From IMG/VR virus record IMGVR_UViG_3300027970_000175, positions 1 through 20,082 of that record: a DNA stretch of 20,082 nt; one strand, given 5' to 3'. The translations under genes and the position numbers were made by a program. The notes beneath the pieces were generated by a model. It saw nothing but the letters and a program-made list of their open reading frames with translations, made no database searches and was not told where the DNA came from. Within the stretch, counting starts at the first letter, position 1. Every line of letters begins with the position of its first letter. This DNA comes from a virus. Shown piece by piece: positions 1 through 12,855 of this stretch.

Positions 1-18
1 CGATTTGGGGGCGTGTTG

Positions 19-49: not shown

Positions 50-68
50 TGGAGGAGGGCGGCAAATG

Positions 69-156: not shown

Positions 157-279
157 GCGCTAGCGGCGCGCATTTCGCATTGCGACCCATACAACTTACC
201 CTCTCACGGCGGACATGCCCCCGTGCCGGGTGGCGTCCTGACCTGCCATCGTCCCCCGAACACAAGCAGGGGTTCGGGA

Positions 280-606
280 ATGACACATCAATGGCCGGAC
301 GATCACGTCAAGGCGTTCGAGATTGCGCGGGCGGGGGCGCCCGAAGATCACGAAGCCGAAGTGCAGAAGCGTGTCGACGACGCTGTCGCTGCCTTCAAGT
401 TGTCGCTTGCCGAAGCAAGGGGGTGTGGGCGTTGTCCGTGGATAGATTGGGCTACGGGCAAGCCTGCCGACCCGCAGCCGATTGCGATGCCGCCTGCCGA
501 TGATGTCCTGGATATCCTTAGAGGCCTGAAGACAGTCGTAGGCGGTCAAGTCGTTCCCGTGTCTCCGCAGCAAGCCGATCCCCGCGCAACTCAATCTGAT
601 AGTTGA
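280..606 (+). CDS. Small hypothetical protein, 108 aa
   Basis: I do not recognise this family. The reading frame is open further upstream (to 223), but ATG 280 is preferred because AGGGG at about 268-272 gives a ribosome site at normal spacing and the protein then begins MTHQWPDDHVKAF. The N-terminal half is a charged helix-forming segment. It is followed by a compact motif, GCGRCPWIDWATGKP, with a Cys-x-x-Cys pair (residues about 48-51) and two tryptophans. The C-terminal 25 residues look disordered and overlap the convergent minus-strand gene by 89 bases, so the true end or even the gene is less certain there. The Cys pair could bind metal, but two cysteines alone are not enough to say so. 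It is the first plus-strand gene in the window and is separated from the head operon by a terminator, so it may be cargo and not a virion protein. Confidence 0.5.
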   Translation: MTHQWPDDHVKAFEIARAGAPEDHEAEVQKRVDDAVAAFKLSLAEARGCGRCPWIDWATGKPADPQPIAMPPADDVLDILRGLKTVVGGQVVPVSPQQADPRATQSDS

Positions 607-742
607 GTTCTCGTCTGATGCTGCCGGCTAGGGCGGCGTCATGGCTGATGATGCCTCTCAGTACGCTAGCCGCTAGGATCATGAACGCTTCGGTGGCGGG
701 GTCGTCGTTCGGTTCGTTGTTCTGCTTGGTTTCTTTGCTCAT
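518..742 (-). CDS. Small minus-strand hypothetical protein, 74 aa (moron-like)
   Basis: This is the only well-supported minus-strand gene in the window. Reading on the minus strand, GGAGAAG lies just ahead of the ATG at 742 with good spacing. The protein starts MSKETKQNNEPNDD, a disordered acidic-polar head, followed by a likely helical segment with a hydrophobic stretch (AFMILAASVLRGII) and a charged amphipathic end rich in Arg, Glu and Leu. No catalytic motif is visible and the family is unknown to me. Its 3' end overlaps the end of the convergent plus-strand gene. It is bracketed by a bidirectional terminator on its upstream side (794-831) and a minus-type terminator hairpin beyond its end (117-156). 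A single gene with opposite orientation and its own terminators inside a late region resembles the phage cargo genes called morons. No good promoter could be recognised. Confidence 0.55.
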   Translation of the reverse strand: MSKETKQNNEPNDDPATEAFMILAASVLRGIISHDAALAGSIRRELNYQIELRGDRLAAETRERLDRLRLSSGL

Positions 743-793
743 CGTCTTCTCCGGTCGCGCTATTGATTCGCACTCCGCACTCTACCGGAAAGC

Positions 794-831
794 AAAAGGC
801 CCGGACGCTCCCGCAGCGTGCCGGGCCTTTT
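794..831. terminator. Strong bidirectional intrinsic terminator
   Basis: AAAAGGCCCGG (794-804) is perfectly complementary to CCGGGCCTTTT (821-831). An inner stem ACGCT/AGCGT (805-809 with 815-819) extends it, with loop CCCGC and one unpaired G at 820. The A-run and T-run flanks make it work in both directions. It isolates the small genes on the left from the head operon on the right. Confidence 0.85.
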
Positions 832-860
832 CGCGTCTGCGTCCCATAAATCATCCCCCA

Positions 861-882
861 GGGGGCAGGTGCCCCCGCTCCG
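861..882. promoter_or_regulatory. GGGGGCA/TGCCCCC palindrome upstream of the head operon
   Basis: GGGGGCA (861-867) and TGCCCCC (870-876) are perfect inverted repeats, followed by GCTCCG (877-882). The same palindrome plus GCTCCG recurs at 5746-5767, and a degenerate copy lies at 12780-12795. All three stand 37 to 80 bases ahead of the first gene of a block. It may be a binding site for a late regulator or an RNA hairpin. Which one cannot be decided from sequence. Confidence 0.45.
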
Positions 883-912
883 CGATCTGCGCTGCTCGTG
901 CAGTGTCGCGTC

Positions 913-1911
913 ATGAGCAAAAAACGCGAATACATGACCATCAGGACGGCCCTCAATGCCAGCGGCGACGCGGCACCGGAGTGGATCGAGCTATTGCCTG
1001 CTGGGCCTCAGATCATCGGGCGTGATGGCCGGTCGTGGCGCATGACCGATCCTGACGTTGTGATCGCGGCCAGCCGCGCCAACGGCGCGATCCACATCGA
1101 CTATGAGCACGCTAGCGAGACCAAGGCGTCCAAGGGCGACGAGGCCCCGGCTGCCGGTTGGGTGTCAGAACTGGAAGCGCGCAACGGCGCGATCTGGGGT
1201 CGTGTCGAGTGGACGCCGCGCGCGGCCAATATGATTTCGTCGCGTGAGTACCGGTTCCTCTCGCCCGTGTTCGTGTTCGACACCGGCAACCTGCAAATCC
1301 TCAGCCTCGTTTCGGCGGGTCTCACCAACCGGCCCAATCTCGACATGACCGCGCTCAATCGCGCCGAAGACAACCCCGACCCCGCAACAGGAAAGCCCCT
1401 CATGAACATCGAACAGATCAAGGCGCTCAATCGCTCGCTCGGCCTTGCCGAAGAAGCCAGCCCAGCCGCCACGCAGGCAGCCGTCGACGCACTCAAGGCC
1501 AGTACGGCCACCGCGCTGAACGCCGCGCAGTCTCCCTCGCTCGACCGGTTCGTGCCGCGCGCCGACTTTGATGCGCTCAAGGTGCGCGCCGAGACGAGCG
1601 AGACCGCGCTGAACAAAATCAAGACCGATGGTCTGACCGCTGAAATCAACGCCGCTGTCGACGCAGCGGTTGCTGCCGGCAAGATCACGCCCGCCACGAA
1701 GGACTATCACATCGCGAGCTGCAAGGCCGCTGGCGGGGTCACTGCCTTCAAGGCCTACGTCGACGCCACGCCATCGCTGACCGGCGCGTCTGTGCTCGAC
1801 AAGAAAGACCCGCCCAACACCGGCACCGGCGCGCTGACCGCCGACGAGATCGCGGTCTGCCGCAATCTCGGCATGTCGGAAGCTGATTTCCAAAAGGCGA
1901 AAGCCGCCTAA
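913..1911 (+). CDS. I: Mu gpI-like prohead protease/scaffold precursor
   Basis: This is the Mu I family: a prohead protease that matures the capsid and whose C-terminal part serves as scaffold. It is 332 aa from the ATG at 913, close to the Mu protein's size. The N-terminal half (to about residue 160) carries the family signature: AIHIDYEHAS near residue 65, then PAAGWVSELEARNG, WGRVEWTPRA and YRFLSPVFVFD. The C-terminal half is Ala- and Lys-rich and helical, as expected of a scaffold. The start is uncertain: GTG 898, ATG 913 and ATG 934 are in frame and none has a clear ribosome site. An internal in-frame ATG at 1402 has a strong one. The gene opens the head operon after the terminator at 794-831, and the portal and terminase normally next to it are not in the window. 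Confidence 0.9.
   Translation: MSKKREYMTIRTALNASGDAAPEWIELLPAGPQIIGRDGRSWRMTDPDVVIAASRANGAIHIDYEHASETKASKGDEAPAAGWVSELEARNGAIWGRVEWTPRAANMISSREYRFLSPVFVFDTGNLQILSLVSAGLTNRPNLDMTALNRAEDNPDPATGKPLMNIEQIKALNRSLGLAEEASPAATQAAVDALKASTATALNAAQSPSLDRFVPRADFDALKVRAETSETALNKIKTDGLTAEINAAVDAAVAAGKITPATKDYHIASCKAAGGVTAFKAYVDATPSLTGASVLDKKDPPNTGTGALTADEIAVCRNLGMSEADFQKAKAA
1389..1395 (+). promoter_or_regulatory. Internal ribosome binding site of the nested scaffold
   Basis: AGGAAAG sits six bases ahead of an in-frame ATG at 1402 inside the protease gene. This is better than any signal at the gene's own start. It marks an independent translation start, as in Mu where gene Z begins inside gene I. Confidence 0.65.
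1402..1911 (+). CDS. Nested scaffold protein (Mu gpZ equivalent)
   Basis: This is an in-frame internal start within the gpI-like gene, giving a 169-aa product that starts MNIEQIKALNRSLGL and shares the protease's C-terminus. In Mu the scaffold Z is made in this way from the 3' half of I, so that the capsid assembles on many scaffolds and few proteases. Here the start follows AGGAAAG at ideal spacing and sits just after the linker (EDNPDPATGKP) that separates the protease domain from the helical Ala/Lys-rich region. The product has the expected scaffold character: coiled-coil-like helices (residues about 15-110) and a small C-terminal globular end (ADEIAVCRNLGMSEADF). The assignment rests on position, frame and ribosome site. 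Confidence 0.65.
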   Translation: MNIEQIKALNRSLGLAEEASPAATQAAVDALKASTATALNAAQSPSLDRFVPRADFDALKVRAETSETALNKIKTDGLTAEINAAVDAAVAAGKITPATKDYHIASCKAAGGVTAFKAYVDATPSLTGASVLDKKDPPNTGTGALTADEIAVCRNLGMSEADFQKAKAA

Positions 1912-1944
1912 CCCGAATACCCCCCCAGCGAGACGTACCGCGTA

Positions 1945-1990
1945 GAGGGGCTGCACAGGTAACCAGCGTCGCAGCCCCTCATCCCCTTTT
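1945..1990 (+). terminator. Hairpin after the protease gene
   Basis: GAGGGGCTGC (1945-1954) pairs perfectly with GCAGCCCCTC (1971-1980) around a 16-base loop, followed by ATCCCCTTTT. The T-run is short and delayed, so it may be a partial terminator or an RNA processing and stability hairpin between the protease/scaffold and the highly expressed capsid genes. Confidence 0.6.
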
Positions 1991-2016
1991 CAAACCCGCC
2001 TCATAGGATGCTTCCC

Positions 2017-2421
2017 ATGGCAGCACTGACCAAAGACCGATCCACCCCCGCCCGCGACGGCACCTACCGCGAGTTCCCCGTCAAGGCCGGCGTCAAGATT
2101 TTCGCTGGCGCGCAGATGGTCCACACCGGCGGCTTTGCCAAGCCCGGCGTGACCGGCGTTGGCCTGACCGCCATCGGTCGCGCCGACCACTTCGTCGACA
2201 ACACCAACGGTGCCGATGGCGACGTGGCCGTTCGCGTCCAGCGCGGCAAGGCGTTCCGCTACGACAACCTCGCGACTGACCTCGTGCCGCGCAGTGCCAT
2301 CGGCGGCACTTGCTACATCGTCGACGACAACACCGTTGCCGCCACCCACGGCGTCAATACCCGCTCCGCCGCTGGCACCGTCGTCGATGTCGATGACGAC
2401 GGCGTGTGGGTTCAGGTCTGA
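2017..2421 (+). CDS. Capsid cement/decoration-like protein, 134 aa
   Basis: It occupies the slot between protease and major head protein where Mu-like and other phages carry a small capsid-stabilising protein. ATG 2017 is chosen (MAALTKDRSTPARDG) because AGGA at about 2004-2007 fits it, whereas the ATG at 2008 overlaps that site. The protein is beta-rich with many glycines and valines. It has the usual features of cement proteins: an early Thr/Arg polar head, a KAGVKIFAGAQM strand (residues about 24-35), a central GRADHFVDNTNGADGD loop and a final VDVDDDGVWVQV strand. This resembles the DUF2190 or head-decoration style of fold, but I rely on pattern and position, not on an alignment. Cement proteins bind the outer capsid surface after expansion. 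Confidence 0.65.
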   Translation: MAALTKDRSTPARDGTYREFPVKAGVKIFAGAQMVHTGGFAKPGVTGVGLTAIGRADHFVDNTNGADGDVAVRVQRGKAFRYDNLATDLVPRSAIGGTCYIVDDNTVAATHGVNTRSAAGTVVDVDDDGVWVQV

Positions 2422-2501
2422 TCTGACCCTCTGACGTTCCACTAGCCCGGCGCGGATTGCGCAGGGACTACCGTTTTCAATCTTGCAAAAGGCATAAGCC
2501 G

Positions 2502-3398
2502 ATGATCATCAATCAAGGCAATCTCGCGAACCTGTTCATCGGCTACAAAGCCGCATTCAACAACGGGTTTGATGGCGTCAAGCCGAGCTATACGCGGATA
2601 GCGACCGTGGTCCCGTCGACCACTAAGTCGGAAAAATATGCTTGGCTCGGGCAAGCCCCGCGCATCCGCGAATGGCTCGGCGACCGCGTCGTCACCAACA
2701 TCTCGGCACACGACTACTCCATTGCCAACAAGAGCTTCGAGAGCACGATTGCGGTCGACCGCGACGATATCGAAGACGACAGCTTCGGCGTCTATGCGCC
2801 GCTGATGACAGAACTTGGCCGCTCCATCGCCGTATTCCCTGACGAGTTGGTGTTCGGCATCTTGAGCCGGGGCTTTACGGAAACCTGCTACGACAAGCAG
2901 CCGATGTTCTCGGCGAACCACCCTGTCACGAACGAAAAGGGCAAGGAAGTCGCCGTCTCGAACATGCAGGCTGGCGCGTCTGCGCCGTGGTTCCTGCTCG
3001 ATACCAGTCGCGCCCTGAAGCCGGTCATCTTCCAGAACCGCCGGAAGTTCGACTTTATCGCGAAAACGGACCCCAAGACCTCCGATGAAGTGTTCAACAC
3101 CAAGCAGTTCATTTACGGCACCGATGGCCGCTGCAACGTTGGTTTCGGCTTCTGGCAGATGGCGTTCGGGAGCAAGGCAGCGCTCACGAAAGAGAACTTC
3201 CGCGCGGCCCGCACCGCCATGATGAACATGACCGGCGACAATGGCCGTCCGCTTGGCCTCACGCCCAACCTGCTCGTCGTCGGTACGTCGAACTCTGATG
3301 CCGCCCGCGACATCATCCTCGCCGAACGGCTGCCGAACGGCGCGACCAACACCGACCGCAACTTGGTCGAGATTTTCCAGACCCCTTGGCTGGCCTGA
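2502..3398 (+). CDS. T: Mu gpT-like major head protein
   Basis: The 298-aa protein matches the Mu major head subunit family (Mu gpT is about 305 aa). Family features include the N-terminal MIINQGNLANLFIGYKAAF, the segment KYAWLGQAPRIREWLGDR (residues about 45-62), SFESTIAVDRDDIEDDSFGVY (about 77-97), and MFSANHP followed by NLLVVGTSNSDAARDII near the C-terminus. The ATG at 2502 is preferred over the upstream ATG 2457 because homologues begin at MIINQ and AAAAGG lies at about 2487-2492. It forms the capsid shell using the scaffold and protease encoded just upstream. The 191-base gap after it holds two hairpins. Confidence 0.93.
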   Translation: MIINQGNLANLFIGYKAAFNNGFDGVKPSYTRIATVVPSTTKSEKYAWLGQAPRIREWLGDRVVTNISAHDYSIANKSFESTIAVDRDDIEDDSFGVYAPLMTELGRSIAVFPDELVFGILSRGFTETCYDKQPMFSANHPVTNEKGKEVAVSNMQAGASAPWFLLDTSRALKPVIFQNRRKFDFIAKTDPKTSDEVFNTKQFIYGTDGRCNVGFGFWQMAFGSKAALTKENFRAARTAMMNMTGDNGRPLGLTPNLLVVGTSNSDAARDIILAERLPNGATNTDRNLVEIFQTPWLA

Positions 3399-3417
3399 TC
3401 TAGGCCCGCCCACGACC

Positions 3418-3433
3418 TGCCCTTGCGGGCAGT
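3418..3433 (+). other. Short perfect hairpin after the major head gene
   Basis: CTGCCC (3418-3423) pairs with GGGCAG (3428-3433) around TTGC, about 20 bases after the head gene's stop codon. No T-run follows. This would fit an mRNA 3' stability hairpin rather than a terminator. Confidence 0.45.
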
Positions 3434-3532
3434 AACCGGGACGCCCCGTATGAGGCGTGACTAGGGGGAGAGACCCCACCTGTTTTGTAGCGTCCGTTGC
3501 GTTCCGCGTCCCCGTCCCCCGCACGGGCTGAC

Positions 3533-3570
3533 GGCCCGGCGGTCTGACCCCGCCGCCGGGTCCGTTTCTT
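3533..3570 (+). terminator. Terminator-like hairpin before the gp36 gene
   Basis: GGCCCGGCGG (3533-3542) pairs with CCGCCGGGTC (3553-3562, with one G-T pair), followed by CGTTTCTT. It could act as a partial terminator that lowers expression of the connector and tail genes relative to the major head protein. The rest of the gap 3399-3589 contains no convincing gene. Confidence 0.5.
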
Positions 3571-3589
3571 GTCCTGAAAGAGCCCCGCC

Positions 3590-4048
3590 ATGCCCTATGC
3601 CAGCGAACAGGACATCATCGACATTTACGGCGCACCCCGGCTCGACATGCTGGCCGATCTGTCCGCCGATGGCGTGCGCGACGCAGCCAAGATCGAGCGG
3701 GCGCTGAACACTGCCTCCGACGTGATCGACGGCTATATCTCCAACCGCTATGCGCTGCCGTTGCCGCGCGCCTCAGGCGTGCTGCGCGATTGCTGCGTTT
3801 CCATCGCCGTCTACCGCATGGCGAGCGACCCCACCCTGATGGGCGAGGATGTGCGCCAGCGCTACGAAGACGCGATTGCGTTTTTGAAAGACGTGGCCAA
3901 GGGCGTCGCCGGTTTGGGCAGCATTCCAACCAGCGCGCAATCGGCTGCTGCGGCTGCCGCTGGCAACCCGCCTATGTCGTCGCCGCAAACCGTCCTCGTC
4001 GAAAGCACGCCGCGCCTGTTTGGCCGCGACCTGCTGCGGAGGTTGTGA
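3590..4048 (+). CDS. gp36-like head-tail connector (DUF1320 family)
   Basis: The 152-aa protein has the hallmark start of the Mu gp36 (gene J) family: MPYASEQDIIDIYG, then AAKIERALNTASDVIDGYISNRYALPL (residues about 36-62) and CVSIAVYRMASD. These form a helical bundle typical of head completion or adaptor proteins that sit under the portal. The C-terminal end (from about 105) is an Ala/Ser-rich linker followed by PRLFGRDLLRRL, the usual family ending. GAAAGAG upstream of the ATG acts as ribosome site. The stop codon shares a base with the start of the next small gene (TGATG), so translation is probably coupled. Confidence 0.88.
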   Translation: MPYASEQDIIDIYGAPRLDMLADLSADGVRDAAKIERALNTASDVIDGYISNRYALPLPRASGVLRDCCVSIAVYRMASDPTLMGEDVRQRYEDAIAFLKDVAKGVAGLGSIPTSAQSAAAAAAGNPPMSSPQTVLVESTPRLFGRDLLRRL

Positions 4049-4158
4049 TGGGCTGCCCCGTCCATATCGTCTGGCGTGACGGTGTTGCCGGGTCCATCGC
4101 GCGCATCTGCGTCATGGTGGTTGGCATCGCGCTGCTTGTCGCGGGGCACCGCCCATGA
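4048..4158 (+). CDS. 36-aa single-span membrane peptide
   Basis: This very small gene fits exactly between its neighbours: its ATG overlaps the previous stop (TGATG) and its stop overlaps the next start (ATGA). A strong GGAGG ribosome site (4038-4042) precedes it. The peptide begins MGCPVHIVWRDG, and residues 20-33 (ICVMVVGIALLVAG) form a short hydrophobic span, ending in HRP. The double coupling and strong ribosome site argue that it is translated, although it may also help reinitiate translation of the next gene. In P2 the lysis genes lie between head completion and tail completion genes, which is where this one sits. A holin-like or lysis-regulating role is thus possible but is inference. 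No endolysin is seen beside it. Confidence 0.6.
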   Translation: MGCPVHIVWRDGVAGSIARICVMVVGIALLVAGHRP

Positions 4159-4646
4159 CCGGCGTCGTGATCGATGTCACGATGGGCGGCGGCACGTTTG
4201 ACCGCCTCGCGCGTCAGGTCGGCAATCTCGCGCCCCTTAATCGCACGCTTGTGCTCGATGGTCTTGGCCAGATCGGCGAGATGCAGACCAAGCGCCGGAT
4301 CGCGTCTGAGAAGGCCGCGCCGAACGGCACGCCGTGGCGTCCTAACCGCCGTGGCACGTCGATCCTCGTCCAACAGGGTTTCCTGCGCGACAGCATCCAT
4401 CACGCCGTCCAGGGCAGCGCCGCCGTCCGCTGGGGATCAAACCTCGTCTATGCCGCGATCCATCAGACCGGCGGGACGATCCTGCCGACGAGTGGCCGCT
4501 TCCTCGTCTTTCGTGCGGGCGATCGCATGGTGTTTGCAACCAGCGTCACCATCCCGGCGCGTCCCTATCTCGGCATCAGTGCGGCCAACCGCGCGCAAAT
4601 GGAACGCCACCTCGTGACCCTGATCGGGAGACAGCTCAATGGTTGA
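4155..4646 (+). CDS. Virion morphogenesis protein (Mu gpG / P2 gpS family)
   Basis: The 163-aa protein belongs to the phage virion morphogenesis family that includes Mu gpG and P2 tail completion protein S. Supporting features are LDGLGQIGEMQTKRRIASE near residues 36-54, PNGTPWRPNRRG (about 57-68), the ILVQQGFLRDSIHH segment (about 70-83), WGSNLVYAAIHQTGG (about 93-107) and the terminal IPARPYLGIS. In Mu the gene precedes I. Here it lies between the gp36 and gp37 genes, a position more like P2's R-S pair, so a tail completion or head-tail joining role is likelier. It overlaps its upstream neighbour by ATGA and its downstream neighbour by 8 bases. Confidence 0.88.
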   Translation: MTGVVIDVTMGGGTFDRLARQVGNLAPLNRTLVLDGLGQIGEMQTKRRIASEKAAPNGTPWRPNRRGTSILVQQGFLRDSIHHAVQGSAAVRWGSNLVYAAIHQTGGTILPTSGRFLVFRAGDRMVFATSVTIPARPYLGISAANRAQMERHLVTLIGRQLNG

Positions 4647-5187
4647 CCAAATCGCGCCGCCGACCACCGGCAACTTCAACCGCTTTCATGAGGCCGTTAC
4701 GGCTGATTTGAAGGCGGCTTTAACCGGCGTTGCCGTGGACGAGCATTTCGGCCCGTTCGAGCTGGACGAATTGAAATCCTACGCCGTCAAAGCGCCAGCC
4801 GTCCGCGTGTCGATTGCCGGGCCGTCGCACACCGAAGCACTGCCGACCGGCACCCGCGAGGCGCATCTGGTCGTTGCCGCGTTCGTGGTGACCAAGGCCG
4901 CGCCGAACTGGCCAGCGCACAAATCTGCAATGGACCTCGCCGAGCGGATCGCGGCGCGCATCCATCGCCGCACGTTCGGCCTCACGTTCGTCGAGCCGCC
5001 CCGCGATGTGATCATCGAAAACCTCTACAGCGGCAAGCTGCGCGAGTTCTCGGGCGGCGTCGCGCTGTTTTCGGTGTCGTGGACGCAGCGGGTGCAGTTC
5101 GGCCTTGAGACCGCGCCACTGCCAGTCGCTGCCCCACCCCTGCCCGACGACTTCGTGTTCGAACCGGAGGTTGACCTCAATGTCTGA
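4639..5187 (+). CDS. gp37-like tail terminator (DUF1834 family)
   Basis: The 182-aa protein resembles the Mu gp37 (gene K) family, thought to cap the tail tube and join it to the head. It opens with a helix that is typical of the family (NRFHEAVTADLKAALT), then KAPAVRVSIAGPS, a central LVVAAFVVTKAA strand (about 74-87), a helix with SAMDLAERIAARIHRRTFG (about 96-114) and VSWTQRVQFG near residues 148-157. The last 30 residues are Pro-rich and probably disordered. GGGAG at about 4625-4629 precedes the ATG. The gene overlaps both neighbours by 8 bases, which suggests coupled translation. Confidence 0.8.
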   Translation: MVDQIAPPTTGNFNRFHEAVTADLKAALTGVAVDEHFGPFELDELKSYAVKAPAVRVSIAGPSHTEALPTGTREAHLVVAAFVVTKAAPNWPAHKSAMDLAERIAARIHRRTFGLTFVEPPRDVIIENLYSGKLREFSGGVALFSVSWTQRVQFGLETAPLPVAAPPLPDDFVFEPEVDLNV

Positions 5188-5737
5188 GTTGGACGAAATC
5201 TACTACCGGCTGGCCGAGCTGGAACGCGGTCAACGCAACATCATCCGGTTCGTCGAGGTTGACGAGGTCGACGCGGCGAAGGGCACGGCTCAAGCCACGG
5301 ATCGCGGCGGCGGTGAGGGTAAAGACCTTCCGCTGCCGATGCTGCCGTGGGCCGAAGTTGGCGCGCCTCAAGCGGGCGGCAACGGCACGACGTGGCGTCC
5401 GCCAGCCAAAGGTCAGCGGATGATGTTGATCAGCCCCTCCGGGCGGCTCGCCGAGGGCATGCTGTTTCCGGCCTCGTTTTCAAACGCCGCCGGTCAGCCG
5501 TCGCAGAAAGGCGACGAGCATGTCGAGACGCGCGGCAAGACCCGCGTCACGTGGAGCGACAACAGCGCCACGATAGACCATGGCGGCATGACGTTTGTGA
5601 TGGCAGACGGCAAGGTGACGATCACCGCACCCAACATCGAACTGATAGGCCGGATGAAGTTCGTCGGCTTCATCGACCACGACGGCGCGATGGTGTCGAC
5701 CAAGGTCCACATCGACGCCAACGGCTTGCACCGCTAG
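5180..5737 (+). CDS. V: Baseplate spike/assembly protein V
   Basis: The 185-aa protein is a P2 gpV-like baseplate spike. Residues 1-100 form the OB-fold part: MSELDEIYYRLAELERGQRNI, then VDEVDAAKGTAQA and WRPPAKGQRMMLISPSGRLAEGM, the last being typical of the family. From about residue 120 short alternating strands (TRVTWSDNSATIDHGGMTFVMADGKVTITAPNIELIG in overlapping pieces) build the beta-helical spike that pierces the membrane. The C-terminus ends IDANGLHR. I do not see the His-x-His iron-binding motif described at the P2 spike tip, so the tip may be formed differently. Start ATG 5180 overlaps the previous gene by 8 bases, with GGAGG upstream (5166-5170). Confidence 0.85.
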   Translation: MSELDEIYYRLAELERGQRNIIRFVEVDEVDAAKGTAQATDRGGGEGKDLPLPMLPWAEVGAPQAGGNGTTWRPPAKGQRMMLISPSGRLAEGMLFPASFSNAAGQPSQKGDEHVETRGKTRVTWSDNSATIDHGGMTFVMADGKVTITAPNIELIGRMKFVGFIDHDGAMVSTKVHIDANGLHR

Positions 5738-5745
5738 CAGCCCTC

Positions 5746-5767
5746 GGGGGCATCTGCCCCCGCTCCG
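5746..5767. promoter_or_regulatory. Second GGGGGCA/TGCCCCC palindrome
   Basis: GGGGGCATCTGCCCCC occupies 5746-5761 and is followed by GCTCCG, as at 861-882. It lies just after the spike gene and about 80 bases ahead of the next start codon. It may be a regulator site or an RNA hairpin. Confidence 0.45.
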
Positions 5768-5790
5768 TTTCCCGAAAATCGCTGCCAAGG

Positions 5791-5818
5791 TTGCGTCGAA
5801 CACCGCCGTTCGACGCAA
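5791..5818 (+). other. Perfect 10-bp stem hairpin between V and the next gene
   Basis: TTGCGTCGAA (5791-5800) pairs with TTCGACGCAA (5809-5818) around an eight-base loop. There is no T-run after it, so an intrinsic terminator is unlikely. RNA processing or a protein binding site are possibilities. With the palindrome at 5746 it fills most of the 104-base gap. Confidence 0.55.
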
Positions 5819-5841
5819 TTCCAATCTGCAGCGAGACACCC

Positions 5842-6135
5842 ATGGTCAAGCCCACAGCATCAGTACCCGCAAAAGAGCTTTATGAAATCGTCCAGGGCTT
5901 CTGGCACCGGGGCGTCTTTGCCGCGACCGGCTTCAAGATCGCGCTCACCGAAGCGGAAGCCAAAAACCTGCTGACCGGCGGCAATGTCCGTCGGATCGCG
6001 GCCAACGATGCAACGCCCGTCGACCCCACCGATCCAGCACCTGCTGCAATCGCTCCCGCCCTCGTCACGGCCCCCGCCCCCGCCCCCGTCGCCGAAGCCG
6101 TCGCCGCCGCAGTCCCGTCCAAGAAGCGGGCCTGA
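5842..6135 (+). CDS. Small hypothetical protein between V and W, 97 aa
   Basis: I do not recognise a named family. The N-terminal 60 residues look folded: ELYEIVQGFWHRGVFAATG, then KIALTEAEAKNLLTGGNVRRI. This pattern (a strand, a turn with a small ligand-like GVF, and a helix TEAEAKNLL) occurs in several small phage proteins encoded near head or tail completion genes. The C-terminal 35 residues are almost all Ala, Pro and Val and end in KKRA, so they are probably a flexible, positively ended tail. ATG 5842 is chosen since it is the first in frame after the intergenic hairpins and has GAGA ahead of it. It is absent from the P2 gene order, in which V and W are adjacent. It may be a baseplate or tail accessory part. 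Confidence 0.7.
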   Translation: MVKPTASVPAKELYEIVQGFWHRGVFAATGFKIALTEAEAKNLLTGGNVRRIAANDATPVDPTDPAPAAIAPALVTAPAPAPVAEAVAAAVPSKKRA

Positions 6136-6137
6136 TC

Positions 6138-6497
6138 ATGGCGGGGATGGATCGCAACACCGGGCGTTGGGTCGCGGGGTGGCCTCACGCCTCGCAATCG
6201 CTCGCCGATGTGTTGTCGACCCCGCTTGAAACGCGCGTTCTGCGCCGCATGTACGGCGCGGACGATGACACGTTGCAGGACAAGCCGATCAACGCCGACA
6301 TCATCACGACGGCGATCATGGCGGCAGCCGTTCCCATTGCGCGGTGGGAGCCGCGCGTCGAGTTGGTTCATGTCTCCATCACACGCGCCAACGTGCGCGG
6401 CCTGCTGGCACTCGCGATGCGGGTGACGTGGCTGCCGCGCGCGCTGTTTGGCGACCGCACCCCCGCCGTCGATCAGCGCACAGCGAGGACATCATGA
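6138..6497 (+). CDS. W: Baseplate wedge protein W (gp25-like)
   Basis: The 119-aa protein matches the P2 gpW / T4 gp25 family of baseplate wedge components, which help anchor and trigger the sheath. Support comes from RWVAGWPHASQSLADVLSTPL at the start, ETRVLRRMYG (residues about 31-40), DKPINADIITTAI and above all the conserved WEPRVEL (E71-P72-R73). This Glu-Pro-Arg core is the diagnostic motif of the family. An in-frame ATG at 6147 (MDRNTGRW) is an alternative start. The gene overlaps the J gene by ATGA and follows the same W-J-I-H order as in P2. Confidence 0.9.
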   Translation: MAGMDRNTGRWVAGWPHASQSLADVLSTPLETRVLRRMYGADDDTLQDKPINADIITTAIMAAAVPIARWEPRVELVHVSITRANVRGLLALAMRVTWLPRALFGDRTPAVDQRTARTS

Positions 6498-7477
6498 GCC
6501 GATTTGTCGCCATCGACCTCGCGCAATTGCCACCGATCGACGCCGTGGTGCCGCCGGACGCCGAACTCATCGTCGCGCAGCGAAAGCTGACGCTGCTGGC
6601 GCTGATTGCCGACCCGGCCTTGCGTGCCGAGGTCCAAGCCGTGCTGCGGCTGGAAAGCGAGCCGCTGGTCAAGCAGAACGAGGTCGGCGCGATCCGCGAA
6701 TTGATCCACTTCCAGCGGGTCAACGAAGCGGTTCGCGCAGAGATGCTGGCGACAACGTCGGGTAACAATCTCGACAACATGGTTGCGCGCTTGAACGTCC
6801 AGCGGATGCCGGGCGAGAGCGATGCTGAACTGAAGTACCGATACCAACTGAAACCGGAAGCCTTCAGCGTCGCAGGACCCGCCGGTGCGTATGAATTCCA
6901 CGCCCGCAGCGCGCACCCCGACGTGCTGGACGCTGCCTGCTATGGCCCCGAAAGCGGGCTCGTGACGCCGGGCCAGACGCTGACCGTGATCCTGTCCCGG
7001 CTGGGCGACGGTACGCCCTCGCGCGAGATCACCGATGCCGTCTATGCCAGACTTTCCCACGAAGACACGGTGCCCGATACCGACCAGGTGCTCGTGCGCG
7101 GCGCAGTCATCACGCCCTATGCCATCCGCTACCGCCTGCAAGTGCGGCCCGGTGCCGACGTGTCGCTGATCGTCAAGCAGGCCCGTGCCCGGCTGACCGC
7201 GTACGCTGCCACGGATGACGCCTATGTCGCCGCCGTCGATGCCGGATACGTCGGCACGGAGGCGCAGTTTCGCAACCTGCCTCCCGAGGATGGAGGCATC
7301 AATCCGCGCCGGGTCGGCGGTATCATCGCACTGAGCGCGATCGACGGTGCGGCCCATCAGGATCGTATCAACGTGGTGCGCGCGCCTCGCATATCGCCTG
7401 CCGCCGAGGTTAATCCAGGCCTCGACGGGGCCGTGTGGTGCACGAGCGTCGCCGTCGAGTACGAGGTGGTCGCATGA
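6494..7477 (+). CDS. J: Baseplate protein J
   Basis: The 327-aa protein is a P2 gpJ-like baseplate J protein, a wedge subunit linking hub and periphery. It begins MSRFVAIDLAQLPPIDAV. A helical N-terminal part with QRKLTLLALIADPALRAEV follows, then the family segment NNLDNMVARLNVQR, the KYRYQLKPEAFSVAGPAGAYEFHA core (residues about 116-139), then ARSAHPDVLDA and VTPGQTLTVILS. The C-terminal part includes the strand segment AVEYEVVA. The length is similar to the P2 protein of about 300 aa. It overlaps both neighbours by ATGA, consistent with a single coupled transcript. Confidence 0.92.
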   Translation: MSRFVAIDLAQLPPIDAVVPPDAELIVAQRKLTLLALIADPALRAEVQAVLRLESEPLVKQNEVGAIRELIHFQRVNEAVRAEMLATTSGNNLDNMVARLNVQRMPGESDAELKYRYQLKPEAFSVAGPAGAYEFHARSAHPDVLDAACYGPESGLVTPGQTLTVILSRLGDGTPSREITDAVYARLSHEDTVPDTDQVLVRGAVITPYAIRYRLQVRPGADVSLIVKQARARLTAYAATDDAYVAAVDAGYVGTEAQFRNLPPEDGGINPRRVGGIIALSAIDGAAHQDRINVVRAPRISPAAEVNPGLDGAVWCTSVAVEYEVVA

Positions 7478-8127
7478 CCACGATCCCCAAGGTCGAACAT
7501 CTGCTGCCCGACAATGCCACGCCGCTGGAGCGCGCATTGTCGGCGTCAGATCACCGGATGCTGTCGGTGCCGGTGCGCGTCATCCGCGACGTGTGGAGCC
7601 CAGACGATTGCCCGGTCCATCTGCTGCCCTATCTGGCGCAGGCGTGGAGCGTGGACGAGTGGGACCCGAACTGGACCGAGGCGCAGAAACGCCAGGTCAT
7701 TCGCGACAGCGTGTGGATCCATCAACACAAGGGCACGATCGGCGCATTGAAGCGGGCGGTCGCCCAGCTGGGCCTGCCCGCGCGGGTGTCACGCTGGTTC
7801 GAACACGGCGGCGCACCCTACACGTTCCGGCTCTACGTGGCCGTTGCGCCGCTCGCCGAATGGAGCGGTGCCAACTTCACTCGGCTCGTTCGGGTGGCCG
7901 TCAATAACAAGGCTCTGCGATCATTCTTGTCTCGCATCGTTGTGACGCGCCGTTTACCGCCGACGCCGGTCTATGTCGGTGCCGCCGTCGTGACACGTGT
8001 CTGTTCCCGCCTAATTCTCACGCCCGTTACCGCCATTCGTGCCCCCCGTAGCAGTGTCTACGTTGGAGCCGCCATTGTTACGCGGGTTCGCTCGCGCATC
8101 GTTTTGCCATCTGTGGGGACCGCATGA
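7474..8127 (+). CDS. I: Baseplate/tail protein I with C-terminal repeat extension
   Basis: This is a P2 gpI-like tail protein, which joins the baseplate to the tail fibre. Residues 1-150 carry the family: HLLPDNATPLERALSASDH, then WSPDDCPVHLLPYLAQAWSVDEWDP, RQVIRDSVWIHQHKGTIGALK and PYTFRLYV. At 217 aa it is about 40 residues longer than P2's. The extra C-terminus holds two copies of VYVGAA(V/I)VTRV(C/R)SR followed by short linkers, about 29 residues apart, after an earlier partial copy (SRIVVTRRLPPTP). These strand-forming repeats may bind the fibre encoded immediately downstream, whose start overlaps this gene by ATGA. The symbol follows P2 and is distinct from the Mu-type protease I at 913. 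Confidence 0.87.
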   Translation: MTTIPKVEHLLPDNATPLERALSASDHRMLSVPVRVIRDVWSPDDCPVHLLPYLAQAWSVDEWDPNWTEAQKRQVIRDSVWIHQHKGTIGALKRAVAQLGLPARVSRWFEHGGAPYTFRLYVAVAPLAEWSGANFTRLVRVAVNNKALRSFLSRIVVTRRLPPTPVYVGAAVVTRVCSRLILTPVTAIRAPRSSVYVGAAIVTRVRSRIVLPSVGTA

Positions 8128-9917
8128 CATTCCAATACTCGGCACCGCTGACGATCGCCGGTCAAGCCAAGGTCGCAGCCGACATAGCTAACACGGGCAC
8201 AATCAACATTACTGCCGTCGCGGTGGGCGATGGGAACGGCGCGCCGATCACGCCAATTGTGACGCAGTCCGGTTGCGTCCGGGAGGTCTGGCGGGGTGCT
8301 CCAACGTCCGTCTCGCGCGACCCTAATTATCCCAGCCAGGTGCTGATCCAGGTGTCGGTGCCGTCGAGCGCCGGGCCGTGCACGGTGCGAGAGTTTGCGG
8401 TCTACACCGACGATGGCCAGTGCATCATCGTTGGTAATCATCCCAGCAATGACATCGCTGCGCCGAGCCAGGGAGCAATCACCTATCTCGACCTCACCAT
8501 ACCTGTCGTCGTAGATACGGCAGCGACTGTCACGATCCAGATCAACCCGGCCTCGTTGATCCCGCTGTCGCAGCTGCTGCGCGCGCCGTTCATCGGCGTG
8601 GACGCCATCGTCAGCGCGCCACCGGCCAACCCCGCACTGGGTGCGACCGTCGTCATCAACGGTGCCCCCACCGGCGCGTTCGTGGGGCTCGAAAATCACC
8701 TCGCGCAATGGAACGGATCGGTCTGGCTGTCGTGCATGCCGCCGTTCCGCACCGTCGTCGGCTGCGAGGCTGACGGGCTGTACTATCATCTGACACATGC
8801 AGGGTGGGTGGTTTGGGCGGCGAGCGACGCCAACTACGGCCTCGTGCGCTGGTCTGACGTGTGGATCACCGCGCCGGTCACCAAGACCATTCACGGCCCC
8901 GGCGCGGATTTCGGCGGGTTGCCCGACGCGTTTGCGTGGCTCGCCCGCCGCCGCATCGCCCCTGGCGGGTTCGTGACATTCCAGATCGCGGCTGGCCGGT
9001 GGGCCTACAACGCGACGCAACTGGCGTTCGACCACCAAGACGGCCACCTTGTCCAGATCATCGGCGCGCCGCTGCTGGCCCCGTTCCCGGCAGCGCTTGA
9101 CGCCTACCAGATCGCCGGATCAAGCGCTGCCCAGCGGGCAGCTGGCGCGATCGCGATCCTGTCTATGATCCGCACGGTGTGGGCGACCGAAATCGTGCTC
9201 GCCAACGGCTCTCAGTTCACGGGCCGCTCCAAACTGTCGGCGTTCGGCCAGATCGCGGTCACCTCGGATGGCGTCAACGCCGACAACATCGTGCTGACAT
9301 CGACCAGCGACGTATCGCTTGTCGATGTTGTCTCGCACGGCGCAGCCTACCGCTGCATCGCGCTCGCCTCGTGCCGCGCCTCGCTCAATTCGGTCGCGGC
9401 CACGTGTGGCGGGTCGTTTGGCATCACCGCCGAGCAGGGTGCCGCCATCGAGTATGCCGGGCCGCTGATCGCGGTCGGCCACGCCAGCCACGGCATCCAA
9501 GCGTCCGTCAACGCCGTCATCCATCAGGTCGGCACGCTGGCGGTGCTGCGGTCGCGCTGCAACGGTGGCGACGGCGCGATTGCCTATCGCGGCGGCGTCA
9601 TCGAGGCAGCCCAATTGGCCGCGAACGGCGCGTCTCAATGCCACCAAAACGGCGGCAACGGGTTTTCGGCGCAGTCGGGCGGTCACCTCGTTGCGAGTTC
9701 GGCAGCAGCCTCGTCCAATGGCGCATCGGGTTTCCTGGCGTCGGACGGTGGGATCATCGCGGCTTACGGCACGACGGGCGATACGAACGCCACCTACGGC
9801 TATCAGGCGAGCGGCGCAGCCCTCATTCAGCGTGGCGGCGGCACCTGCACCGGGGCACTGGCCGCGTCGACGCCGGCTGTTGGCACCACGGGCAACAACA
9901 ACGCGCTGGTCGCGTAA
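8124..9917 (+). CDS. H: Tail fibre protein, collar domain plus beta-helix (gpH-like)
   Basis: The 597-aa protein starts with a tail-collar fibre domain (residues about 1-145) of the P2 gpH N-terminal type: MTFQYSAPLTIAGQAKVA, then NITAVAVGDGNG and CTVREFAVYTDDG. Residues about 153-230 resemble the DUF2793 module (PANPALGATVVINGAPTGAF, LAQWNGSVW, the GLYYHLTHAGWVVW end), found in several phage fibres. From about 250 onward the sequence is a run of short glycine-turn strands such as GGIIAAYGTTG and GGVIEAAQLAANG, typical of a right-handed beta-helix. It ends with a Gly/Ser/Thr/Asn-rich tip. Only the N-terminal domain attaches to the baseplate. The distal part probably contacts the host surface, possibly with glycan binding or cleavage, for which I see no catalytic motif. 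Confidence 0.85.
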   Translation: MTFQYSAPLTIAGQAKVAADIANTGTINITAVAVGDGNGAPITPIVTQSGCVREVWRGAPTSVSRDPNYPSQVLIQVSVPSSAGPCTVREFAVYTDDGQCIIVGNHPSNDIAAPSQGAITYLDLTIPVVVDTAATVTIQINPASLIPLSQLLRAPFIGVDAIVSAPPANPALGATVVINGAPTGAFVGLENHLAQWNGSVWLSCMPPFRTVVGCEADGLYYHLTHAGWVVWAASDANYGLVRWSDVWITAPVTKTIHGPGADFGGLPDAFAWLARRRIAPGGFVTFQIAAGRWAYNATQLAFDHQDGHLVQIIGAPLLAPFPAALDAYQIAGSSAAQRAAGAIAILSMIRTVWATEIVLANGSQFTGRSKLSAFGQIAVTSDGVNADNIVLTSTSDVSLVDVVSHGAAYRCIALASCRASLNSVAATCGGSFGITAEQGAAIEYAGPLIAVGHASHGIQASVNAVIHQVGTLAVLRSRCNGGDGAIAYRGGVIEAAQLAANGASQCHQNGGNGFSAQSGGHLVASSAAASSNGASGFLASDGGIIAAYGTTGDTNATYGYQASGAALIQRGGGTCTGALAASTPAVGTTGNNNALVA

Positions 9918-9926
9918 GGGGCATCC

Positions 9927-10322
9927 ATGAAACTCTACTGCAACCAAACCACCATCGTGGCGACGCACCGCGATGACCAGGCCGTCCCGGCGTCGGCCTA
10001 CGGCGCGGGCATTGACGTTCTGACGGTCGCCGACGACTACCCGCTGGCACACGTTGGTGCAGTGCGCCCGCCCGCAGACGCGGTGCTGGTCCCGGCGATG
10101 GATTTCCTCGCGTTCCTGGCGCTGTTCACGCCCGCCGAGCAGGCAGCCATCGTCGGCTCGCCCGACATTCAGGTCCGGCTGTTCCTGCTGATGGCGTCGG
10201 GGTCGTACTACGGCGTGTCGCTGGCCGATCCGCGCGTCATCGGCGCACTCGGGTATCTCGTCACGCTCGGGCTGCTGAGCGCTGCCCGCCGCGACGCCGT
10301 GCTCGCCAATCAGGCCCCGTAA
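9927..10322 (+). CDS. Small fibre-associated protein, 131 aa
   Basis: The gene follows the fibre after a nine-base gap with AAGGGG at 9916-9921. It has no family name that I can give with confidence. The N-terminal half is beta-rich (MKLYCNQTTIVATHRDDQ, then VLTVADDYPLAHVGAV). The C-terminal half is a helical module: MDFLAFLALFTPAEQAAIVGS, IQVRLFLLMASGS, then LADPRVIGALGYLVTLGLLSAARRDAVLA. This last pattern is widespread as a short C-terminal helix module in small phage proteins near fibre and coat genes. It could be a fibre assembly factor or a minor virion part. Confidence 0.7.
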   Translation: MKLYCNQTTIVATHRDDQAVPASAYGAGIDVLTVADDYPLAHVGAVRPPADAVLVPAMDFLAFLALFTPAEQAAIVGSPDIQVRLFLLMASGSYYGVSLADPRVIGALGYLVTLGLLSAARRDAVLANQAP

Positions 10323-10334
10323 CCGGAGAGACCC

Positions 10335-10670
10335 ATGGCGCTGCAAAAAGATTTTCTCGCCCGCACCAACGCCGACTGGGCGTGGGACATCCAATTCCAG
10401 AGCGGCGGCGCGCCGGTCGATCTGACCGGGGCCGACGTGCGCATGAGCATCGTCGACGGCGCGGGCGCGATCCAGCTTCTGTTGACGCTGGGGCAAGGGC
10501 TGGCGCTCGATGGCATCACCGGCACGCTGTCGGGCCGTGTGTCTGCCGCGCAGATGCAGGGGCTGCCCGCCGGGTCGTACCGCCACGACATTCAAATCCG
10601 TCGTGCGGGCACCATCATCGTGCCGGTCGAAGGGTCGGTCGGCGTCAGTCAGGGGGTGACGCGTGTCTGA
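10335..10670 (+). CDS. Small beta-sandwich-like protein, 111 aa
   Basis: GGAGAG at 10325-10330 precedes the ATG. The chain is of beta type: DFLARTNADWAWDIQFQSGG, then APVDLTGADVRMSIVDGAG, TGTLSGRVSAAQMQGLPAG and SYRHDIQIRRAGTIIVPVEG. This order (a leading drive toward an intrinsic linear strand, then a PVDLTGA turn, then a final TIIVPVEGSVGV strand) matches small Ig-like baseplate or fibre N-terminal domains such as the BppU N-terminal type that join receptor-binding parts to the baseplate. The link is by pattern only. It is coupled to the next fibre gene, which starts with GTG eight bases before this gene's stop, so the two products are likely partners. Confidence 0.68.
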   Translation: MALQKDFLARTNADWAWDIQFQSGGAPVDLTGADVRMSIVDGAGAIQLLLTLGQGLALDGITGTLSGRVSAAQMQGLPAGSYRHDIQIRRAGTIIVPVEGSVGVSQGVTRV

Positions 10671-12162
10671 GATCATCATCGTCGATCTGACCCCGCCGCC
10701 CGCCGTGACCGTCGTGCCGGGCGATCCCACGTGGGCCGAACGGGCAGCGGCATCAGTGTCGGCTGCCGCTGCTCACGCCGACGCGCTGGCGACAGCAGCA
10801 GACCGCACGGCAACGGCGATTGCCGCCGACGCGGTGACGGGTCAGGTCGCGGCCCATGTGGCAGCCGCCGACCCGCACGTCCAGTACCTCACACCGGCGC
10901 GCGGCGATGCCCGCTACGACGCGGCGGGAGCCGCAGCAGCGGTGCAAGCTCACGCCGTCAACCGCGCCCATCACGAGGGCACGCAACCTGCCAACACAAT
11001 CGACGGTCTCGCAGCGGTCGCGACCAGCGGCAGCAAGGCGGATGTCGGGCTCGCCAACGCCGACAATACCAGCGACGCCAACAAGCCGGTCTCGACTGCG
11101 CAGGCAGCAGCACTTGCGCTGAAAGCCGATCTCGTCGCCGGAAAGGTCTCCGCCGCGCAATTGCCGTCCTACGTCGACGACGTCGTCGAGGCTGCCAATC
11201 TGGCCGCGATCCAGGCGCTGACAGGCGAAAGCGGCAAATTGTACACCGCGCTCGACACGGGCAAAATCTACCGCTGGTCGGGCAGCGTCTACGTCGAGAT
11301 ATCACCGTCGCCGGGATCGACCGATGCGGTGCCGGAAGGGGCGGTCAATCTCTACCATACGTCTGCGCGCGTCACCGACCTGATCGCTGCCGCGCGGGGC
11401 GTCTCCGTCCAGGCCTACAGTGCCGCGCTTGCAGGTTGGGCTGGGATCGTCCAGATCGACGGATCAAACAACGTCGCGATTGGGATGGCTCCCACGGGCA
11501 ACAACCGGCTGGACGTGTTGGGTAACATCCGGTCCACGACCTCTGTGGCTGCTGGCTCATGGGCGATGAACGCGACGGTCGGCGTTTACGTGTCATCGGC
11601 GTCGCGTGGGAAGATGCACGCCGGAGTGCTCGCGGCTGGCGGGGCGTACCCGTACGGATTTAGCTCCGGCGACGGCGTGACCATGACCGGCGGGCATGTC
11701 TTTTTCAACGTGGACGGCTCCGAGCGGGCGCGCATCACGCCGACCGGGCTTGGCATCGGCGTCGCAGCCCCATCGGCGCTGCTCCACGTTGCTGGAAGCG
11801 CGAAGATCGGACGGCAGTTGACGCTCAACAAAAACGATAACGTCACGCCCGATTTTTCGGTGGGGCGCGATTTCGCGAACGCCGACGGCCACAATTTCTA
11901 CATCTACGACAACGTCGCTGGAACTGCGCGGGTCTACGTCGACGGCTCTGGCAATATCGGGGTCGGCACGACCGCCCCGGCCTGCACCCTCGACGTGAAT
12001 GGACCGGTCGGCGTTGCGGCTTACACGGTCGCCACCAAGCCAAGCGCGGCGCTGCGCGATGCGATGATGATCTACATCACCAACCCGTCGTCAGGCTCGC
12101 CCCGCCCCTACTGGTCGCGGGCCTCGAATTGGTATGACGCCGCTGGAAACCTTTTGGCCTAA
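10663..12162 (+). CDS. Second tail fibre protein, GTG start
   Basis: The 499-aa product starts at GTG 10663, overlapping the previous gene by GTGTCTGA, with AGGGGG just upstream as ribosome site. Residues about 24-70 form an Ala-rich coiled coil, AADPHVQYLTPARGDARY then resembles the HxQYL-type tail fibre motif, and VGLANADNTSDANKPVSTAQ (about 127-147) is a common fibre repeat. A module ending SGSVYVEISPSP follows. The C-terminal half has trimeric shaft motifs such as RITPTGLGIGVAAPSALLHV and GNIGVGTTAPACTLDVNG. These often lead to a chaperone (S74) domain, but the protein ends soon after YWSRASNWYDAAGN, so that domain is absent. It may be a side or receptor-binding fibre separate from H. Confidence 0.82.
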   Translation: MSEIIIVDLTPPPAVTVVPGDPTWAERAAASVSAAAAHADALATAADRTATAIAADAVTGQVAAHVAAADPHVQYLTPARGDARYDAAGAAAAVQAHAVNRAHHEGTQPANTIDGLAAVATSGSKADVGLANADNTSDANKPVSTAQAAALALKADLVAGKVSAAQLPSYVDDVVEAANLAAIQALTGESGKLYTALDTGKIYRWSGSVYVEISPSPGSTDAVPEGAVNLYHTSARVTDLIAAARGVSVQAYSAALAGWAGIVQIDGSNNVAIGMAPTGNNRLDVLGNIRSTTSVAAGSWAMNATVGVYVSSASRGKMHAGVLAAGGAYPYGFSSGDGVTMTGGHVFFNVDGSERARITPTGLGIGVAAPSALLHVAGSAKIGRQLTLNKNDNVTPDFSVGRDFANADGHNFYIYDNVAGTARVYVDGSGNIGVGTTAPACTLDVNGPVGVAAYTVATKPSAALRDAMMIYITNPSSGSPRPYWSRASNWYDAAGNLLA

Positions 12163-12174
12163 ACCGGGTATCAT

Positions 12175-12771
12175 ATGACCATCACCGAACGCCTGATCGA
12201 CCACCGCATCTTAATCGTGCTCGACCCCGCCACGGGCACGCTGATCGGCGCGCACGAGGACCGGCTGACCGAAATCCTCAACGGCGATCAACGCATTGGC
12301 GTATCGCCATCGAACGGCGTGCCGCTCAATCCGATATCGCTGGCAGCTGCCCTCCCAACGCAGGCCACTCTGATGGCGCAGGTCCAGGCGCTGACGGCGC
12401 AGTTTGTGGCCGCACAGACCGCGACCATGGAGGCCGTCGCCGCACGCGATGCGGCGCTGGAACGTGTCGCCGCGCTGGAGATTGCTGCCGAGGCTGCCAC
12501 GGCGGCGCGGGTTGGCGAGGTCACGAACTACCAGATACGCGCCGCACTGATCGGGGACGGCCTGTTCGACGCCGTCAACACCTACATGCTGTCGCTGCCC
12601 CCCGCCGACCTCGCCCGCCAGGGCTGGGAGTACGGCAACACGTTCCTGCGCTCATCTGATTTTGTCGTCAGCCTCACGCCACTGCTCGCCCAGCTGCTCG
12701 CCATCACCATCGAACAGGCATCAGCCAAGCTCGACGCGCTGTTTGCGTCGGCGAGTGCGGTCACTGGGTGA
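12175..12771 (+). CDS. Coiled-coil protein after the fibre, 198 aa
   Basis: I cannot name the family. The N-terminal 60 residues (LIDHRILIVLDPATGTLIGAHEDRL and so on) look like a beta attachment domain. Residues about 62-112 are an Ala/Gln/Glu heptad-like coil (VQALTAQFVAAQTATMEAV, RDAALERVAALEIAAEAA). The C-terminal 85 residues are a helical module: VTNYQIRAALIGDGLFDAV, LPPADLARQGWEY, then SSDFVVSLTPLLAQLLAIT. That last module recurs at the end of small proteins near phage tail fibre genes, often described as fibre assembly or adaptor proteins. The ribosome site is weak (a GGGTA before ATG 12175). Confidence 0.7.
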   Translation: MTITERLIDHRILIVLDPATGTLIGAHEDRLTEILNGDQRIGVSPSNGVPLNPISLAAALPTQATLMAQVQALTAQFVAAQTATMEAVAARDAALERVAALEIAAEAATAARVGEVTNYQIRAALIGDGLFDAVNTYMLSLPPADLARQGWEYGNTFLRSSDFVVSLTPLLAQLLAITIEQASAKLDALFASASAVTG

Positions 12772-12779
12772 TCGCTTGC

Positions 12780-12795
12780 GGGGGCATCTGCACCC
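12780..12795. promoter_or_regulatory. Third, degenerate copy of the GGGGGCA palindrome
   Basis: GGGGGCATCTGCACCC keeps the left arm and centre of the copies at 861 and 5746 but has one mismatch in the right arm. It lies about 70 bases before the sheath gene, at the start of the third gene block. Confidence 0.35.
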
Positions 12796-12809: not shown

Positions 12810-12855
12810 GCCCTCGGGATACACCGGATCAAACGCCGGTCCACATCCTGAGGGC
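12810..12855 (+). promoter_or_regulatory. Hairpin covering the tail sheath ribosome site
   Basis: GCCCTCGGGAT (12810-12820) pairs with ATCCTGAGGGC (12845-12855) with one G-T pair, and inside it ACCGG (12823-12827) pairs with CCGGT (12836-12840). The 3' arm contains GAGGG, the only ribosome site candidate for the ATG at 12862. ATTTT follows, so it could also act as a weak terminator. Either way it may control how much sheath is made. Confidence 0.5.

Follow-up and report, generated by a model that had tools for sequence, protein, structure and literature searches.

Introduction

In phage Mu the activator C binds a dyad in each of the C-dependent promoters Plys, PI, PP and Pmom, as described in the available sections of PMC4287176 and PMC4461284, and the former places the Mor site at -51 to -36. 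At the Mu promoter Pm the available text of PMC4390567 gives the 16-bp element of Mor a centre of -43.5, where it stands in place of a -35 box. The stretch of DNA analysed here (the window, 20,082 bases of a virus record) is, as judged from Pfam and PHROG matches, the late region of a Mu-like phage, for which DNA similarity to annotated phages extends to 122 records, the best at ~64-65% over the gpT region. A palindrome recurs within it, and comparison of related sequences makes it very probable that each copy marks a late promoter of this transposable, Mu-like phage and is bound there by a Mor/C-type activator that the phage itself encodes.

The likeness to Mu, as far as the available parts of PMC4287176, PMC4461284 and PMC4390567 describe it, lies in a 16-bp dyad near -43.5 in the position of the -35 box (known for Pm), a -10 hexamer without a -35 and a phage activator with a C-terminal HTH, with the predicted promoters placed before lysis, I and a tail-region block, here of tail/baseplate genes. 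Mu has two activators, Mor and C, whereas one Mor/C-like gene was noted in the window phage. The arms of the dyad meet around 2 bp here, in contrast to the 5-bp arms and 6-bp spacer of Mu Pm, and, unlike Mu, the window phage has four sites, one of them before the sheath gene, and a rearranged gene order.

In the accessible portions of the open-licence literature, including PMC5488378, PMC2628397, PMC12486242, PMC9239132 and PMC9936078, no paper was found to describe recurring palindromes at the late genes of such phages, a gene I message that lacks a leader or a clamp motif in Mor/C proteins. Sites of the Mor/C type are known from Mu; a leaderless I and a clamp-like tail on the regulator are the parts that specialists would not expect. 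The Mu Mor/C switch would extend to a wide range of phages, most of them alphaproteobacterial, whose activators and sites have diverged in step; such pairs provide matched sequences for recognition rules and make late promoters predictable from sequence. If the clamp-like tail holds true, it would supply a mechanistic link between replication and late gene expression of the Mu type.

Palindromes at the borders of the late gene blocks

The palindrome GGGGGCA-NN-TGCCCCC, picked out by the first-pass annotation at 861 and 5746 and, in degenerate form, at 12780, was recovered at all three places. The first copy, GGGGGCAGGTGCCCCC at 861-876, has GG at its centre and the second, GGGGGCATCTGCCCCC at 5746-5761, has TC; the third, GGGGGCATCTGCACCC at 12780-12795, reads GGGGGCA-TC-TGCACCC, with one mismatch. 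The copies and the genes that follow them are:

861..876 (+), dyad A, exact 16-bp palindrome, predicted activator site of the head (I) late promoter, centred at -44.5
913..1911 (+), protease/scaffold gene I (PF10123, E 1.9e-63 on 931-1911)
5746..5761 (+), dyad B, exact palindrome, predicted activator site of the baseplate/fibre late promoter
5842..6135 (+), first gene after dyad B, a 97-aa ORF with no Pfam or PHROG match and a predicted 44-nt leader
12780..12795 (+), dyad C, one mismatch, predicted activator site of the sheath/tube late promoter
12862..14286 (+), tail sheath gene (PF04984), predicted 30-nt leader, Shine-Dalgarno -6.1 kcal/mol
L008:11673-12437, regulator gene, beyond the window, adjoining the lysis copy

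Allowing up to one mismatch, the window holds three copies and 200 windows simulated with a first-order Markov model hold none; with up to three mismatches there are seven matches against 2.64 expected. The next start codon follows after 36 bases (ATG 913), 80 bases (ATG 5842) and 66 bases (ATG 12862), close to the 37 to 80 bases first claimed. The trailing GCTCCG noted with the palindrome is present after the copies at 861 and 5746 only, the copy at 12780 being followed by GTAAAC. The gene content of the blocks is as originally described: the head block (protease I, gpT, gp36 and Phage_tail_S) lies before the second copy, with a gpV-like gene immediately ahead of that copy; gp25/gpW, gpJ, gpI and the fibre gene follow the second copy; and sheath, tube and chaperone genes, then a long ORF without a family in the position of the tape measure, follow the third.

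Contig L008, identical to the window over 2527 bp (100%), reaches ~11 kb further upstream. It carries in series an S24-type repressor (L008:2487-3545), an HTH_35 protein that we take to be of the Ner type, a Mu-type transposase, an AAA ATPase in the position of MuB, GemA, a regulator with an HTH and weak similarity to Mor, a palindrome and a lysozyme gene. This fourth copy (L008:12446-12461) starts 8 bp beyond the stop codon of the regulator, so that the four copies stand at four late-block borders, before lysis, head, baseplate/fibre and sheath.

P2 Ogr and P4 Delta likewise activate late tail genes through an upstream dyad. Their TGT-N12-ACA site, whose absence beside the palindromes had been remarked on, occurs six times as an exact match in the window (2.35 expected), but none of these overlaps a palindrome, and the reading of the palindromes as Ogr sites was dropped; one match, inside the gpV-like gene, ends 34 bases before the second copy. 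A generic intergenic repeat had also been considered, to be recognised by many copies at unrelated places of the host genome. As far as the viral collection goes this was set aside: the 22-base pattern GGGGGCANNTGCCCCCGCTCCG, which includes GCTCCG, was found in seven contigs, all flanked as in this phage or a close relative and none outside them.

Recurrence of the palindromes in related phages

The survey of related sequences covered 151 sequences (the window, related loci and related contigs), with a protease I match in 135. Related phages have their own versions of the palindrome at the same kinds of junction, in support of a late promoter element, and where one stands before I, further copies often lie ~7-13 kb upstream and 10-16 kb downstream within the contig. 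The sequence differs from phage to phage and includes CTGACA-NN-TGTCAG, GCGACG-NN-CGTCGC, GGGCGCAA-NNN-TTGCGCCC and CCCGGAAAGCTTTCCGGG, among others. At least one further copy is present in 20 of 23 contigs, compared with an average of 0.016 copies in contigs that have another half-site; 20 of 23 is not an unbiased rate, because the contigs were hand-picked partly for recurrence of the palindrome. No further copy was found in G032 and G015, and the pattern of G025 did not match its own contig. When contigs were chosen solely by the position of a dyad 43-45 nt before I, a further copy was present in 24 of 39, under looser palindrome matching than in the previous count, compared with 71 of 227 for dyads at control offsets. 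The 39 dyads include chance cases, since control windows of five offsets average 10.4 and reach at most 18 of 106 contigs.

Not every relative carries the arrangement in the same form. For the nearest gpT relative in a cellular genome (L088/G044, 72%), 22.5 kb were examined; the one dyad there, at ~-47.5, has another sequence and is not repeated. In Rhodovulum RS1 and Rhodobacter RC1 a weaker dyad (6/8 pairs) lies at -45 with CAGTGT at -13 to -8, and the distance from dyad to hexamer equals that of the window phage. For phage Mu and Pseudomonas phage Fc02, none of the five best dyads before I is near -44. No copy within two mismatches was found in the 34,415 bp of L011/G001.

Three further observations were made in these relatives. 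L011/G001 appears to be a recombinant relative, matching the window at 96% over 2416-4050 and at 89% over 4128-5155 and then mostly diverging. In L112, L124, L127, L146 and L152 the start codon of I comes 8.5 nt after the centre of another palindrome, mostly CCGCCA-NNN-TGGCGG, which is perhaps a translational element. An identical 19-bp palindrome, GGGCGGGGTCACCCCGCCC, lies upstream of and directly after gpT (L042:8145 and 10906, also L048 and L046); among the repeated palindromes listed, these copies are not in the -44 arrangement.

A -10-like hexamer at a fixed distance from the dyad

The flanking sequence was aligned by d, the distance from the dyad centre, for 66 sites from 33 contigs, chosen by hand in part because their palindrome recurs; left out were the I copy of G002, a duplicate of that of the window, and any site with two or more mismatches. 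An A is found at d34 in 49 of these 66 chosen sites and in 14 of the mirror controls, a T at d38 in 41 against 15 mirrored, and TA at d33-34 in 19 against 2, which together describe a -10-like [TC]AnnnT at a fixed distance, d33-38, on one side of the dyad only. The same holds for the contigs selected by position, with A at d34 in 26/39 against 68/227 control-offset dyads and T at d38 in 23/39 against 71/227. If the T at d38 is taken as -7, the dyad centre falls at -44.5, and the predicted +1 lies 37 nt beyond the 3′ end of each copy, 52 nt beyond its first base, roughly at the distance (40-70 bases downstream) where the first-pass annotation would have counted starts as support. The predicted hexamers in the window are:

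901..906 (+), CAGTGT, predicted -10 hexamer of the I promoter, d33-38 from the centre of dyad A
5786..5791 (+), CAAGGT, predicted -10 hexamer after dyad B, d33-38, predicted +1 at 5798
12820..12825 (+), TACACC, predicted -10 hexamer after dyad C, d33-38, predicted +1 at 12832

The hexamer of the lysis copy is TACCTC. Those at A and B are CAnnnT, not TAnnnT, which was counted against the promoter reading. The promoter scan listed no two-box sigma-70 promoter around sites A and B. Both the position of dyad A relative to I and its -10 geometry recur in related phages.

A Mor/C-like regulator that co-varies with the site

A Mor-like ORF (109-254 aa, judged by eye) was seen beside the lysis-side dyad in 22 of 25 phages, its end at most 154 bp upstream or reaching up to 5 bp into the dyad; in L073 and L106 it is ~0.6 kb upstream and in G023/L047 downstream. 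Co-variation between regulator and site was measured, with half-sites entered by hand, in 22 of these 25 phages, L073, L106 and G023 being left out because the script saw no Mor-like ORF before the dyad. Distance between sites follows distance between the HTH regions of the regulators (Mantel r 0.57, p 2e-4, n=22), also when the distance of protease I is given (r 0.43, p 0.002), and protease I adds nothing once the HTH is given (r 0.04, p 0.35). With 17 phages the correlation is r 0.34, p 0.004. The site also correlates with the N-terminal domain of the regulator (r 0.55), the HTH retaining 0.28 (p 0.02) when that domain is given, and co-descent contributes to the correlation.

A profile of 21 regulator sequences found Mu Mor (1rr7, E 4e-4) and Mu C (9l0x, E 0.2) in the PDB, amid many HTH proteins, and aligned to Mu Mor and C in hhalign over 106 columns with E 4e-6 and a probability of 87%. 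The Pfam Mor model (PF08765) matches eight of nine non-Mu regulator proteins at E up to 0.1, three of the nine exceeding the cut-off, and across 47 records it matches 16, 12 of them above cut-off. The regulator of the window phage scores 19.3 bits, under the cut-off of 24.9. Fold searches did not single out Mor/C for this protein: its predicted structure (mean pLDDT 74) gave no Foldseek match under 0.001, Mor was not among the best 50 matches, and Mu C (9l0x; Z 5.0, rmsd 3.6, 53 aligned) ranked level with common HTH proteins.

It is highly improbable that the same dyad plays the same role but is bound by a host or other phage regulator instead of the Mor/C-like protein, as might be argued from the weak Pfam Mor support in the window phage, when the sites vary between phages, repeat within a phage and co-vary with the HTH of a regulator whose gene adjoins the first site. 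Computation shows where the palindromes lie, that they recur within phages, how the -10 is spaced from them and that site and regulator co-vary. From sequence we infer binding and activation by the regulator, the start points and leaderless translation, and would propose the following for the Mor/C-type promoter. The regulator would bind as a dimer to the 16-bp dyad at about -44.5, with GGGGGCANNTGCCCCC as the predicted target in the window phage, replacing the -35 element. Once bound it would turn on the host sigma-70 polymerase at a -10 box, [TC]AnnnT, starting 25 bases past the dyad. The lysis, head (I), baseplate/fibre and sheath/tail blocks would each have one such activated promoter. For the head block the first transcribed base would be the A of the I ATG (913), and most other copies would have a leader between the predicted +1 and the gene.

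The first-pass annotation had left open whether the palindrome was a different late promoter element or a processing signal. The conserved junctions, the -10-like hexamer at fixed spacing and the co-varying regulator all favour the former, and the latter gained no support.

RNA hairpins and operators

It is highly improbable that the palindromes act as hairpins ending the upstream gene block, whether by intrinsic termination or by RNA processing, in spite of G+C-rich stems located between blocks. The fold of copy C does beat its shuffles (z -2.9), but those of A and B are barely better than theirs (z 0.14 and -1.2), and neither A nor B has a T tail or appears in the terminator scans, which covered both; with the combination of a G+C-rich stem and a T run lacking at these two sites, the intrinsic-terminator reading was set aside. 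Shortly before A the sequence can form another, stronger hairpin that ends in four T:

792..834 (+), G+C-rich hairpin ending CCTTTT, terminator-like, RNA fold -30 kcal/mol, z -4.3

It is missing from the consensus terminator scan, which requires five T. Termination or processing would also leave unexplained the one-sided -10 signal at fixed spacing and the tracking of the regulator. In some relatives (G021, G027, G042) a T run does follow the dyad or an extended stem, so there the dyad may double as terminator of the upstream block. A search of Rfam gave two matches at E below 1, both below gathering scores.

Least probable is that the palindromes are operators at which a lysogeny repressor silences the late genes in the prophage: a dyad is also typical of repressor sites and L008 encodes the S24-type repressor, but its copies with at most two mismatches lie only before lysis and I, with none at the repressor/early junction, on which ground the reading was set aside, and the sites track the Mor-like regulator, for which the distances were computed.

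The start codon of gene I

Under the Mor/C-type promoter geometry the I start codon of the window phage sits on the predicted +1, with 44.0 nt between the centre of dyad A and ATG 913. In an offset scan of 106 non-redundant contigs, unselected for recurrence, 20 have an in-frame I start exactly 44.0 nt past the centre of a dyad; the mean over offsets is 2.24 (sd 1.85) and the next best offset has eight contigs. Of 32 hand-picked phages with a chosen dyad, 25 have an in-frame start of I on the predicted +1, 43-45.5 nt past the dyad centre, and seven do not (G021, G014, G010, G022, L106, L074 and G023). At the other copies of this hand-picked set the next ORF starts at least 22 nt past the predicted +1 in 24 of 31, and an ORF start falls within 15 nt of it in the remaining 7/31.

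Anti-Shine-Dalgarno pairing at the I start of the window phage is just -1.8 kcal/mol. For the 26 I starts of those dyad-positive contigs, out of 39, that have A at d34, the mean is -2.6 kcal/mol, compared with -3.1 at random positions and -6.0 at 219 other ORF starts (p 5e-8). A start codon on the predicted +1 and the lack of a Shine-Dalgarno sequence therefore suggest a leaderless mRNA, and the message of gene I probably begins at the A of ATG 913. In Mu, unlike the window phage, no dyad stands at -44 before gene I, and AGGA lies a short distance ahead of the ATG of the gene. A codon-position test of the I N-terminus had one usable pair, L119/L123, with 12 of 16 differences at position 3.

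A clamp-like tail on the regulator

The motif Q-x-[DSE]-[LM]-F follows the HTH in 14 of 22 regulators, where shuffled tails would give 0.04, and in relaxed form it is found in 18, being missing in G021, G010, G022 and G035. In the regulator of the window phage the tail reads QLDMF and is followed by a second HTH. The six reading frames of these contigs hold 1828 ORFs of at least 100 aa; the motif falls within the last 25 residues of 11, every one of them one of these regulators. The corresponding tails are QPDLF in Mu C and QPSLL in Mor. The tail resembles the beta-clamp binding motif, given as QL(S/D)LF or QxxL(x)F in the available text of PMC5371812, which suggests a possible coupling to replication; contact with the polymerase or a structural role are alternatives.

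In T4 the sliding clamp gp45 activates late transcription, as set out in the available parts of PMC2988020 and PMC7892883. A comparable arrangement here is a speculative and rather doubtful proposal in two parts: that Mu-like phages tie late transcription to replication, the host clamp loading or licensing the Mor/C activator through its conserved tail at diverging, phage-specific dyads, and that in a mainly alphaproteobacterial branch this would drive a leaderless I message. The likeness to T4, which concerns this speculative part only, is a late activator with a motif like those that bind the clamp. T4 uses its own clamp with gp33 and gp55, whereas here a sequence-specific activator would act with what is presumably the host clamp.

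Layout of the phage genome around the late region

Within L008:1-13801, which overlaps window 1-2527, the I-gpT-tail block and the repressor are oriented opposite to the early genes, the regulator and the lysozyme gene, an unusual order in which late genes flank the early region on both sides. The join in L008 is supported by L007 up to L008:3600. In G044, a contig of a Hyphomicrobiaceae genome, the Mor-like gene is likewise reversed relative to I. Between the repressor and I, window 223-742 holds two ORFs (127 aa on the + strand and 74 aa on the - strand) with no PHROG match. The fibre protein at 8124-9917 has a Phage_tail_fib N-terminus and a DUF2793-like stretch just below cut-off.
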